Origin: Candidatus Woesearchaeota archaeon CG10_big_fil_rev_8_21_14_0_10_32_24
GTDB taxonomy: Archaea > Nanobdellota > Nanobdellia > Woesearchaeales > GW2011-AR9
Assembly: GCA_002763025.1 (NCBI GenBank)
Contig: PCYG01000036.1
Coordinates: 1 to 12,564, forward strand
Direction of reading: 5' to 3'
DNA: 12,564 bases
Part shown: positions 7,320-10,138 of the stretch, piece by piece
How positions within the stretch are numbered: position 1 is the first letter of the stretch
Layout of the letters: each line of letters starts with the position of its first letter
Position numbers and translations under genes: made by a program
Notes under the pieces: generated by a model
What the model saw: the letters and a program-made list of their open reading frames with translations, nothing else
Told to the model about the DNA's origin: nothing
Database searches by the model: none

Positions 7320-9122
7320 ATGTCAGAAATTAATATTCTCTCTGAAGATCTCATTAATAAAATCGCAGCAGGTGAGGTAGTGGAAAGGCCGGCTTCTGTG
7401 GTTAAGGAACTTATAGAAAATGCATTAGATGCAGATGCAACTAGTATTATAGTTGAAATTAAAAATTCTGGGCAAGATTTGATTCGGATTACGGATAATG
7501 GGAAAGGCATGAATGAAGTAGATGCTAGAAAATCTGTGTTACGGCATGCAACAAGTAAATTGAAAACAGTAGAGGATTTATTTTCTATTGGGACATTAGG
7601 ATTTAGGGGAGAGGCACTTGCAAGTATTGCAGCGATCTCACAATTTTCTTTAATTACAAAACAGAAAGATCAATTAGAAGGATTTAATCTTGTGTTAGAA
7701 GGTGGTCAAGTTATTAGTGAAGGTGCAATTGGATGTGATCAAGGTACAACAATTGAAATTCGTAATCTCTTTTTTAACACGCCTGTGCGGAAAAAGTTTT
7801 TGAAAACAGATGCCGTAGAATTACGCCATATCATTGATGTTGTGACGCATTATGCATTATTGCATGAGTCTGTTGATTTTAAATTGACACATGAAAATCA
7901 TGAACTCCTGAATGCTCCTTCCATGGGAGATCAGCGAAGTAATATTGCATCAATTTATGGTATTTCCATTGCAAAAGAATTGTTGGAAATAGATTATGAA
8001 GATGATCTTGTAAGAATTGAGGGTTTAATTTGTAAACCTTTGAATTCACGTAATGATCGGAATCAACAAGTGTTGTTTGTCAATAATCGGTGGGTGAGGA
8101 GTAAAGAATTAACGGATGCAGTTTATGAGGGATATAAATCTCGTTTGTTTGTAAATAAACATCCTATTTTTGTTTTAAGTTTAACATTAAATCCTCATAA
8201 TGTAGATGTTAATGTTCATCCACAAAAGATGGAAATTAAAATCGAACAGATTAATGAAGTGAGTAAAGTAGTAACGCAATCTGTAATTAAAACCTTAGAA
8301 AAACATAATTTAATTCCTTTAATGGATGTTGAATCAGAAGCATTAACAATGGGAGCTGAAGTTCGTAAGACCTATACTTTTGAACCCTCTCAACAAACTA
8401 CGTTAAAAGTTGAAGAAACAACAGCTTCGTATTCTGATTCTTATGACCTTGGTTCTTACGTTACACCAGAAGAAGAAGTCATTGAAAAAGGAGATTATAA
8501 TAAGATTTCTGAACCTGTTAAAGAAGTAGAACAGATTGTGGAAAAATTACCGCACATGAAAATTTTTGGACAAGTTCATAAAACATTTTTTGTGGCTGAA
8601 ACTGAAGGAGGTGTTCTTTTTATTGATCAACATGCAGCTCATGAACGTGTGATGTATGAAAAATTCATGAAACAATTTAAAGATGCATCTGTGAGTGTGC
8701 AAGAATTATTGCAAGGTGGCGTGTTAGAATTAACTGCTGCAGAAAAGGTGTTAGTGGAAGAAAATATTGAAGAATTATCAGTGATGGGTTTTAGTATAGA
8801 ACCATTTGGTGGTAATACATTCATTTTAAAATCCGTACCTTCCGTATTTGGAAGATTACAATCGCGAGATTTATTTCAAGTGGTATTACATGAATTAGTT
8901 ATTGGTCGGAATACGCTTCAGGAATTGAAAGAACTCATTATCACAAGAATGGCTTGTCGTTCAGCAGTTATGGCTGGCGACGAATTAACAATTAATGAAA
9001 TGACAAAGATCTTATCAGATTTACAAAAAACAGATTTCCCTTATACCTGTCCACATGGACGTCCAACGATGATTAAAACTGAAGCTTTTGAGTTAGAAAA
9101 AAAGTTTAAGAGATGTGGCTGA
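7320..9122 (+). CDS. mutL: DNA mismatch repair protein MutL, endonuclease type
   Basis: MutL couples mismatch recognition by MutS to strand incision and excision. The 600-aa sequence has the N-terminal GHKL ATPase: IAAGEVVERPASVVKELIEN (15-34), DNGKGM (59-64), ATSKL (77-81) and GFRGEAL (94-100). The transducer domain follows, with NPHNVDVNVHP at 291-301. A low-complexity acidic linker spans about 335-410. The C-terminal dimerisation domain carries the complete nicking-endonuclease set: DQHAAHERVMYE at 436-447 (the DQHA-x2-E-x4-E motif), ACRSA at 545-549 and CPHGRP at 577-582. It is therefore the incising type found in most bacteria other than E. coli. MutS/MutL is patchy in archaea and usually ascribed to transfer from bacteria. 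No mutS is in the window. A TATA box lies 27 bp upstream of the ATG, and a mobile-element insertion starts 15 bp after the stop codon. Confidence 0.96.
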   Translation: MSEINILSEDLINKIAAGEVVERPASVVKELIENALDADATSIIVEIKNSGQDLIRITDNGKGMNEVDARKSVLRHATSKLKTVEDLFSIGTLGFRGEALASIAAISQFSLITKQKDQLEGFNLVLEGGQVISEGAIGCDQGTTIEIRNLFFNTPVRKKFLKTDAVELRHIIDVVTHYALLHESVDFKLTHENHELLNAPSMGDQRSNIASIYGISIAKELLEIDYEDDLVRIEGLICKPLNSRNDRNQQVLFVNNRWVRSKELTDAVYEGYKSRLFVNKHPIFVLSLTLNPHNVDVNVHPQKMEIKIEQINEVSKVVTQSVIKTLEKHNLIPLMDVESEALTMGAEVRKTYTFEPSQQTTLKVEETTASYSDSYDLGSYVTPEEEVIEKGDYNKISEPVKEVEQIVEKLPHMKIFGQVHKTFFVAETEGGVLFIDQHAAHERVMYEKFMKQFKDASVSVQELLQGGVLELTAAEKVLVEENIEELSVMGFSIEPFGGNTFILKSVPSVFGRLQSRDLFQVVLHELVIGRNTLQELKELIITRMACRSAVMAGDELTINEMTKILSDLQKTDFPYTCPHGRPTMIKTEAFELEKKFKRCG

Positions 9123-9137
9123 TGAAAATTAAGCTCA

Positions 9138-9145
9138 TTTAACCC
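9138..9145 (+). repeat. Left copy of 8-bp direct repeat (target-site duplication)
   Basis: TTTAACCC is directly adjacent to the left terminal inverted repeat of the element at 9146. The identical octamer occurs at 9426-9433, directly outside the right terminal repeat. Two such copies abutting perfect inverted repeats are what a staggered-cut transposition leaves. Confidence 0.8.
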
Positions 9146-9425
9146 GTAATACTTTAGAGAACTTTGCAAAATAGATGTTTTGAAAAAACACAAGGGCTAA
9201 AATTCATAAATTTCTTTGTTTTAGGAAGTGGCTTTCATGTAAAAGTGAATTATTCAAAGTTCTCTTTAGCAAAATGAAGCAGAGATAGCACCGACTCACT
9301 TTTCTGCTGGTAAGATTGCACTGCGGGCACCCCGTAAGGGGCTTCCCCCACCCGCAAAGAAATGTTAGAGTCGATAAACGTTCATAAATTGGTGCTTTCT
9401 CTGCTTCAGAACACTAAAGTATTAC
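9146..9425. mobile_element. 280-bp non-autonomous (MITE-like) element inserted between mutL and psmB
   Basis: The element is bounded by perfect 12-bp terminal inverted repeats, GTAATACTTTAG (9146-9157) and CTAAAGTATTAC (9414-9425). These are flanked at once by perfect 8-bp direct repeats TTTAACCC (9138-9145 and 9426-9433). No open frame of useful length lies inside, so any transposase must act from elsewhere. Without the element and one repeat copy, the mutL-psmB spacer would be about 98 bp, like other spacers here. Terminal repeats starting GTAA with 8-bp duplications are typical of the IS66 family; assigning this element to IS66 from such short ends is inference. The interior is not a simple hairpin but folds into two large arms (9156-9265 and 9276-9407). 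The insertion ends 6 bp upstream of the psmB TATA box and may influence that promoter. Confidence 0.75.
9146..9425 (+). ncRNA. Candidate structured RNA inside the mobile element
   Basis: Transcribed from the plus strand, the element folds into a closed three-way junction. P1 is the 12-bp terminal repeat. P2 is AGAGAACTTTG/CAAAGTTCTCT (9156-9166 with 9255-9265, 11 bp), enclosing smaller hairpins at 9176-9190 and 9197-9224. P3 is GAAGCAGAGA/TCTCTGCTTC (9276-9285 with 9398-9407), then a U-U mismatch, then AGCACC/GGTGCT (9287-9292 with 9391-9396), GACTC/GAGTC (9293-9297 with 9368-9372), TGCGGG/CCCGCA (9322-9327 with 9351-9356) and a CCCC-GUAA-GGGG cap. The GNRA loop exists only on the plus strand, which favours that orientation. 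It lacks the conserved motifs of SRP RNA, RNase P RNA, 5S and tRNA. No good TATA box lies at the expected place, so expression is uncertain; the fold could instead serve DNA hairpin formation. Confidence 0.4.
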
Positions 9426-9429
9426 TTTA
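9415..9429. repeat. TAAAGTA/TACTTTA palindrome next to the psmB promoter
   Basis: TAAAGTA-T-TACTTTA is a perfect 7-bp dyad with a 1-bp centre. It is formed where the right terminal repeat of the mobile element meets the flanking TTTAACCC. It ends 10 bp upstream of the psmB TATA box, a typical activator position, but it may simply be a by-product of the insertion. Confidence 0.4.
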
Positions 9430-9433
9430 ACCC
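9426..9433 (+). repeat. Right copy of 8-bp direct repeat (target-site duplication)
   Basis: This second TTTAACCC abuts the right terminal inverted repeat at 9425. It pairs with the copy at 9138-9145 as the duplicated target of the inserted element. Confidence 0.8.
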
Positions 9434-9439
9434 AAAAGA

Positions 9440-9447
9440 TTTATAAG
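9440..9447 (+). promoter_or_regulatory. TATA box for psmB
   Basis: TTTATAAG is preceded by the BRE-like AAAAGA. The centre is about 65 bp before the psmB ATG, so transcription should start near 9470 and leave a leader of about 40 nt. This differs from the leaderless neighbours. Confidence 0.6.
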
Positions 9448-9495
9448 TATAGAGCACATTCCAATCATAAAACAAGAGGTTGAAAAAACTTTTCT

Positions 9496-9501
9496 AGGGT
9501 G
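9496..9501 (+). promoter_or_regulatory. Shine-Dalgarno site for psmB
   Basis: AGGGTG resembles the archaeal GGAGGTG consensus and ends 7 nt before the ATG at 9509. It fits the presence of a leader on this mRNA and supports the chosen start. Confidence 0.5.
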
Positions 9502-9508
9502 TTAAAAT

Positions 9509-10138
9509 ATGGATCAATTAAAAACAGGTACTACAACAGTAGGCATTGTCTGTAAGGATGGTATTGTTCTTGCAGCTGATATGAGAGCAACCGTGGGTCA
9601 CATGATTGCTGATAAACGAGCAGATAAAGTGCATATCTTAAATGATGATTTTGCTGTAACATGGGCAGGATCCGTTTCAGAAGCACAGCTGATTACAAAA
9701 TTAATTCGTGCGGAATTAAAATTAAAAGAAATTCGTACAAATAAAAAAACTAATGCGAAAGAAACCGCTAATTTACTTGGTGGATTAATTTACTCAAGTA
9801 TTAGGCGGCCAAGTATGTTGCCAGGAATTGCACATTTTATTCTTGGAGGTAAGGATACAGATGGTCTTCATCTTTATGATTTATTTCCTGATGGAAGTGT
9901 TACTGAAGTTCCAGACTATGTATCATCTGGTTCAGGAAGTGTCTTTGCATATGGTGTATTAGAAACAAGATACACCAAGGATATGTCTGTAAAAGAGGGT
10001 ATTGAACTTGTAAAATTAGCAGTAAATACAGCTTTACAAAGAGATAGTGCATCAGGTAACGGAATTAACATTGTTGTGGTTAATCCAACTGAAATAAAGA
10101 ATGTCTTTAGAAAAGAAGTCGCAATGACTTTGTATTAA
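9509..10138 (+). CDS. psmB: 20S proteasome beta subunit (threonine protease)
   Basis: This subunit forms the inner catalytic rings of the archaeal 20S proteasome, which degrades unfolded proteins. The 209-aa precursor begins with a very short propeptide, MDQLKTG, cut before Thr8 to expose the catalytic N-terminal threonine (TTTVG). Taking Thr8 as Thr1, Asp24 and Lys40 fall exactly at the family's Asp17 and Lys33. The later catalytic elements are GSGS (about 141-144) and RDSASGNG (178-185), holding the conserved Asp179 and Ser182. Length is normal. A TATA box lies about 65 bp upstream, an AGGGTG Shine-Dalgarno 7 nt before the ATG supports the start, and the leader lies next to the inserted element that ends at 9433. 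T-rich tracts after the stop look like an archaeal terminator. No alpha subunit gene is in the window. Confidence 0.95.
   Translation: MDQLKTGTTTVGIVCKDGIVLAADMRATVGHMIADKRADKVHILNDDFAVTWAGSVSEAQLITKLIRAELKLKEIRTNKKTNAKETANLLGGLIYSSIRRPSMLPGIAHFILGGKDTDGLHLYDLFPDGSVTEVPDYVSSGSGSVFAYGVLETRYTKDMSVKEGIELVKLAVNTALQRDSASGNGINIVVVNPTEIKNVFRKEVAMTLY

Follow-up and report, generated by a model that had tools for sequence, protein, structure and literature searches.

Between mutL and psmB on a 12,564-nucleotide stretch of DNA from Candidatus Woesearchaeota archaeon CG10_big_fil_rev_8_21_14_0_10_32_24 (contig PCYG01000036.1; the whole stretch is hereafter the window) lies a block bounded by inverted repeats, and the locus raises the question of whether this block is a mobile element, how it is built and which transposase could have moved it. 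A reading made from the letters alone (the sequence-only reading) had proposed a single MITE-like element with IS66-family traits, mobilised in trans. An IS66-type MITE family, with a second element nested in the copy at this locus, is well supported by the analysis described here.

An inserted block upstream of psmB

The block lies between mutL (7320-9122, forward strand; Pfam DNA_mis_repair and MutL_C) and psmB, which encodes a proteasome subunit (9509-10138, forward strand; Pfam Proteasome). Its borders are letter-perfect: the terminal inverted repeats GTAATACTTTAG (9146-9157) and CTAAAGTATTAC (9414-9425) pair at 12 of 12 positions and the 8-bp TTTAACCC abuts both on their outer sides (9138-9145 and 9426-9433), exactly as the sequence-only reading had described. 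The same reading had called this arrangement very unlikely by chance, and an 8-bp direct repeat abutting a 12-bp perfect inverted repeat, with a spacing of 60-400 bp, was found once in the window and in none of 20 Markov-1 shuffled windows. Excision of 288 bp leaves a mutL-psmB spacer of 98 bp, which agrees with the earlier estimate of about 98 bp. No ORF of at least 60 aa is listed within 9123-9508, so the block is non-coding, as had been claimed, and the MITE that bounds it (hereafter MITE A) is without an IS66 transposase gene. Directly after the insertion, AAAAGATTTATAA looks like the psmB core promoter and may serve as such.

A dispersed repeat family and an empty site

The host genome (G000; 775,796 bases in 84 contigs, 77% complete) was searched with the 296 bases of the block and its flanking duplications. 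The search gave 123 matching pieces, and 40 of 69 first-look candidates were scored. Among the 40 pieces with E < 1e-30, 38 (all except the window and contig C16) fall within query positions 118-296, the right part of the block, and MITE A copies at this threshold are 81-100% identical over the matched stretch. The exact 12-mer GTAATACTTTAG occurs 73 times at 51 loci, 22 of which have two exact ends and 29 one; many of the one-ended loci are cut off by an assembly gap or a contig end, or their partner end has changed. With up to one mismatch allowed, there are 87 matches versus 10 for the backward control. With about 50 loci in 776 kb, a copy occurs every 15 kb or so of the assembly.

Target-site duplications (TSDs) were scored at the 28 copies with both ends read (seven contain assembly gaps; one-ended copies were left out), and they match at 8/8 positions in 21 copies, 7/8 in six and 5/8 in one, versus a maximum of 6/8 in 756 swapped flank pairings; the further copies with different 8-bp flanks for which the sequence-only reading had suggested a search do exist. 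Thirteen full-length 168-bp copies differ from their consensus at only 1-8 of 168 positions (a fourteenth copy, 167 bp long, was not counted), and the burst of MITE A therefore looks recent. A subfamily of 198-205 bp carries another inner segment (L053, L058 and L064). By simple ORF calling on the loci of the 28 copies, 25 of the 28 insertions do not fall in an ORF of at least 80 aa, versus 79% of positions drawn at random from these loci that do.

psmB was matched in 44 of the 49 genomes of the family, own included (43 relatives), and the locus was compared with the window for 30 relatives (30 loci including our own, plus stretches of G002 and, again, of G001). DNA of the element was matched at none of the psmB loci of these 30 relatives; the own genome alone matched. 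The sequence-only reading would have been abandoned had relatives carried the same sequence in this spacer, and no match to it was found in the 30. The mutL flank was matched by DNA in seven relatives only (G001, G002 and, partly, five others). In G002, of the same genus, the site is empty: it reads CATTTAACCCAAAAGATTTATAA with one TTTAACCC, the flanks being 88% and 95% identical, and this provides the empty site that had been proposed as a check. In G001 (same genus; L221), too, a single TTTAACCC is present, and before it stand some 450 bp of different sequence that look like a small ORF. The block is thus a genuinely mobile element, and MITE A has the following features of a MITE: it is short and non-coding, has terminal inverted repeats and TSDs of constant length and variable sequence, and occurs in many copies with an empty site.

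A second element within the first

The sequence-only reading was right about a MITE with a TSD, and wrong about its being one 280-bp unit. The 280 bp consist of two nested elements, namely MITE A of 168 bp (9146-9156 plus 9269-9425) and element B of 108 bp (9157-9264), which together with 4 bp of TTTA give the full length (168 + 108 + 4 = 280). B has the ends GAGAACTTTG and CAAAGTTCTC and is flanked by its own duplication TTTA at 9153-9156 and 9265-9268. It severs the left terminal repeat of MITE A, the left part of which, GTAATACTTTA, stands at 9146-9156 (forward strand); the remainder, up to the right terminal repeat, occupies 9269-9425 (forward strand) and is delimited by the genome-wide copies. 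Without B and one TTTA, MITE A in the window is exactly 168 bp long and differs at 2 of 168 positions from the consensus of the 13 other full-length 168-bp copies. Its terminal repeats are bipartite and extend to 23 bp, GTAATACTTTAG-N5-TGAAGC, with the inner halves TGAAGC at 9275-9280 and GCTTCA at 9403-9408 (both forward strand).

Query positions 7-128 of the 296 bases have one other long match in the own genome, on contig C16, where B stands alone (a 113-bp match, 98%, flanked by TATT/TATT). A 6-bp duplication CTTTAG for B was discarded, since the C16 copy is compatible only with the 4-bp reading. Three other MITE A copies in the own genome, read by eye, contain three insertions that differ from one another in kind and position: a piece bearing two short hairpins (L018, 1374-1653), an insertion with 19-bp inverted ends CCAATGTCATTAAGTTAAG and the 8-bp duplication TGCAATCC (L029, 1510-1820), and one with the 5-bp duplication TTTAT (L030, 25-283). 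The most plausible course of events is that the 168-bp non-autonomous, IS66-type MITE A inserted upstream of psmB, duplicating 8 bp of target, and that the small, unrelated element B (108 bp, 4-bp duplication) later inserted in its left terminal repeat.

Two other accounts of the block were weighed. That the 280 bp are a single larger MITE, with the 168-bp copies as its deletion derivatives, would fit the single pair of ends that bounds the block in the window; it is highly improbable, given that the left insert is bounded by inverted ends and a 4-bp duplication of its own and stands alone in C16, that the three other copies bear different insertions elsewhere in the element, and that no further 280-bp composite was found among the 40 of 69 own-genome candidates scored. 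The block might also be a conserved structured non-coding RNA gene or a psmB leader, with the repeats as its basal stem, and it does fold much more strongly than shuffled sequences (z -5.9 as RNA and -6.0 as DNA, with a strong fold on both strands) and contains a covarying core. Set against this are the lack of any match to the block at the psmB loci of the 30 relatives, the empty G002 site, and the scattering of about 50 copies with different 8-bp flanks; Rfam, moreover, gave for 8900-9700 three matches, all far below cut-off and none relevant. A feature specific to psmB is already refuted by these data, and we leave the RNA or leader account virtually no probability. Nested elements, of which the outer is MITE A, are the reading retained below.

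A covarying core shared by differently ended elements

Within MITE A lies a structured core (9322-9356, forward strand), TGCGGG-CA-CCCCGTAAGGGG-CTT-CCCCC-A-CCCGCA, the outer stem of which covaries between elements. The interior piece at about 9322-9356 also matches genomes without MITE A ends. In 27 representatives selected for similarity in the core, a constant CCCCGTAAGGGRC-NN-CCCCC is framed by a stem, both arms of which change together: the mean perfect stem is 5.6 bp within a sequence versus 2.8 bp with arms swapped between genomes, and a stem of at least 5 bp is formed by 20 of 27 representatives versus 35 of 634 swaps (seven fall below 5 bp, L094 with 1 bp). With three poorer cores added (L037, L079 and one in L147, none with a stem above 3 bp), the counts become 20/30 versus 42/798, and with one core per genome (the first listed) 8/13 versus 6/156.

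The core loci are the window (9322-9356), L252-L271, L048, L089, L094, L247 and L251. The ends around the core are GTAATACTTYAG in G000, G023, G011 and nzgw59 and GTATGTATTAAG in G002. G002 has two core copies with perfect 8-bp duplications and the ends GTATGTATTAAG (both) or GTATGAATTAAG/ATATGGATTAAG; because of the ends of these two copies, the core occurs within different ends in one genus. It is also found in repeats without recognised ends (G028, G039, G041 and G008). A scan for terminal inverted repeats with TSDs over 27 core loci (MITE A left out) recovered five versus 1 of 162 shuffles: two in G002 and one each in G023, nzgw59 and G011, with none passing in the other 22. Rfam, applied to 16 core loci, gave nothing for the core; the only hits were a tRNA and a weak match overlapping it, in L265. 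We tentatively entertain, without favouring it, the idea that the core is a selected cargo or signal, folding as RNA or single-stranded DNA, that might outlive its transposase by moving into new ends. A covarying core common to differently ended elements in any case poses the question of what is selected in these mobile hairpins.

Related ends in other genomes

The pattern GTAATACTTTAG-N5-TGAAGC, with up to two mismatches, was found in 43 of the 352 genomes of the order, 14 of which have at least five matches; a lone match may be due to chance, as the backward control gives scattered ones and, in one genome, 12. Eight MITEs of G023, G029, G044 and G011 have similar ends and other interiors; of their TSDs, four are perfect over 8 bp, three match at 7/8 and one at 6/8. 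One MITE of G044 has GTAATTGTTTAG at one end, GTAATACTTTAG at the other and an 8-bp TSD. A 188-bp element is common to G029:C38 and the Woesearchaeota contig JACPCC010000053.1.

In the named genome collection, the exact bipartite pattern occurs on 21 contigs (6 Woesearchaeota, 4 other archaea, 6 Phycisphaerae, 1 Sedimentisphaerales, 2 Deltaproteobacteria, 1 Streptococcus and 1 Microcoleus), and the Streptococcus and Microcoleus matches are probably chance. Paired ends with 7/8 duplications were found in four bacterial loci (pairs of at least 7/8 being reported). The deltaproteobacterium G355 has a multi-copy element with the ends GTAACACTTTAGCTC or GTATCACTTTAGCTC, read in six edge loci, which stops at contig ends; the frame reading into those ends is an IS66 C-terminus (14 matches, 13 over cut-off). 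At L103, L104, L107 and L110 of G355, the opposite end of this multi-copy element starts with an ORF (MESVVFRYRCRDIEPQD...); no Pfam or NCBIfam family is matched by its first 60 residues at E 0.01. A GTAACAGTTTAG pair 1492 bp apart in G355 (L189), with an IS66 C-terminus inside, was rejected as the flanks do not match. Ends of the MITE A type are absent from five bacterial IS66 loci (L171-L173, L175 and L176; G352, G353 and G354), of which L171 is a complete 2448-bp element of a different IS66 type, with ends GTAAGGT and an 8-bp duplication.

IS66 transposases as probable movers of MITE A

The IS66 profile PF03050 matches 43 of the 352 genomes of the order (38 over cut-off). It is present in 13 of the 43 genomes with MITE-type ends versus 30 of the 309 without (Fisher p 6e-4), and in 6 of 14 MITE-rich genomes versus 37 of 338 others (p 0.003), both p-values being uncorrected for kinship. 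A complete element, its 12-bp ends and its 8-bp TSD both perfect, is present at five of 30 IS66 loci retrieved from this archaeal order. These five are ISBst12-like, with ends of the form GTA...AG (GTAATTGGTTAG, GTAATCATTCAG, GTATGTGATTAG, GTATGTGCATAG or GTATTTGTTTAG), a length of 1299-1637 bp and one large transposase ORF of 413-464 aa, a description that allows a small upstream ORF (there is one in G189); their proteins score 206-282 bits against the 180-bit NCBI IS66 cut-off. Pairs with 7/8 duplications at L121, L131 and L146 have poor ends and were taken as chance, and 22 of the 30 loci gave no pair.

In four records, namely L092 (a Woesearchaeota contig; IS66 domain E 3.6e-5), L238 (1.4e-4), L235 (0.0038) and L225 (3.3e-7), an exact GTAATACTTTAG end directly adjoins an IS66 C-terminus. 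All are incomplete: L092, L238 and L235 break at contig ends, and L225 is decayed. The search for a full-length transposon with the same ends, suggested by the sequence-only reading, led to these fragments, and no complete IS66 element with GTAATACTTTAG at both ends was found. Among 20 stretches around MITE-type ends or IS66 hits, six match the IS66 profile, only two of them (L235 and L238) beside an exact end. Inspection of the surroundings of single ends for an autonomous element, in 12 loci from the named collection and in G011, showed no transposase-like ORF among those listed. Contigs break at MITE-type repeats in L235, L238, L092 and several own-genome contigs, and autonomous copies may be under-represented.

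In G189, an IS66 transposase is split over contig ends, with its N-terminal part on C24 and its C-terminal part on C8; the ends are GTAATTATTCAG and GTAATACGTTAG, and the same flank AATTAACA stands on both parts. A small ORF, which we take to be AbrB-like from its look, precedes the transposase gene on C24 (L242). In the own genome, PF03050 has no match and an intact transposase was not found. An IS66-like C-terminus lies at C10:7370-7484, inside which contig C10 ends (end sequence GTAATTGTTTAGGTTTTTGAAAC). This fragment shares 26 of 34 residues with L092 (score 129 versus 40 for the best of 1000 shuffles), is weak by the archaeal IS66 protein profile (E 0.017) and is not reported at E 1 in a six-frame HMMER scan; its end GTAATTGTTTAG matches the MITE A end at 10 of 12 positions. 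PF03050 is likewise without a match in 8 of the 14 MITE-rich genomes, among which the archaeal IS66 profile finds G199 (1.5e-6) and, weakly, G029 (0.014) and the own genome, and nothing in the other five.

Several IS families produce 8-bp duplications, and MITE A could have been moved by one of these (e.g. IS1 or IS1595), its likeness to IS66 ends being convergence; the lack of an intact IS66 transposase in the own genome would agree with this. Such a mover is improbable, though, in view of the four records in which exact MITE ends abut IS66 C-termini and of the higher share of IS66 carriers among genomes with MITE-type ends. Of these families, the one searched for, IS1, was rejected as mobiliser: its profile PF03400 matches 4 of 20 genomes at E ≤ 0.1 (3 over cut-off) and has no match in the own genome. 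Very probably, MITE A is an IS66-type MITE moved by an IS66 transposase of ISBst12 type, with the unrelated B nested later. Such a transposase, with its one large ORF, would recognise the 23-bp ends and act in trans by the usual DDE chemistry, leaving 8-bp duplications. The earlier proposal of an IS66-like element mobilised in trans is supported by IS66 elements and fragments with matching ends, by the varied 8-bp flanks and by the empty site. Being non-coding, MITE A is an IS66-type derivative and not an IS66 element.

Relation to known elements

No prior report of this MITE family in DPANN or Woesearchaeota was found in the open-licence literature searched. "Possibly a new archaeal family", as the sequence-only reading put it, holds to that extent and does not extend to the mechanism class, IS66/ISBst12, which is known; as far as searched, the family is ordinary in kind and new in lineage. 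In a small DPANN genome, a non-autonomous IS66-type transposon seems to have undergone a recent burst, with elements nested in elements, and contigs ending in these repeats may bias completeness estimates of such genomes.

The main text of a review of prokaryotic MITEs (PMC10969869) does not mention IS66, DPANN or nested elements; the MITEs of Sulfolobus and Haloquadratum are archaeal, as is MITE A, and the lineages differ. MITE A resembles the IS66/ISBst12 group in its 8-bp TSD, GTAA start and 20-30-bp ends. IS66 ends are described as 20-30 bp long, starting with GTAAGCG and flanked by 8-bp repeats (PMC11946415); MITE A does not have this start, and ends of the type of ISDge4 are closer. ISDge4, a transposing element of the ISBst12 group from Deinococcus geothermalis, encodes 449 aa; its ends are GTAACTGCTCAGCA and GTGACTACTCAGCA, and it has an 8-bp repeat (PMC12898284). 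MITE A shares with the ISBst12 group ends of the form GTAA....TYAGCA, and transposases of the family occur in the same archaeal order; unlike ISDge4, it is without a transposase gene, is 168 bp long with a hairpin interior, and has the 12-mer GTAATACTTTAG instead of GTAACTGCTCAG. A burst in a symbiont genome is described for MITECca01 of Cardinium, an IS982-derived MITE of 240 bp in 169 copies (PMC9769881), which, like MITE A, is short, non-coding, the dominant repeat and mostly intergenic, and is attributed to a parental IS of a known family. The two differ in that MITECca01 has an IS982 parent, whereas MITE A is IS66-type, is 168 bp long and has about 50 copies, its parent being represented at most by a possible fragment.
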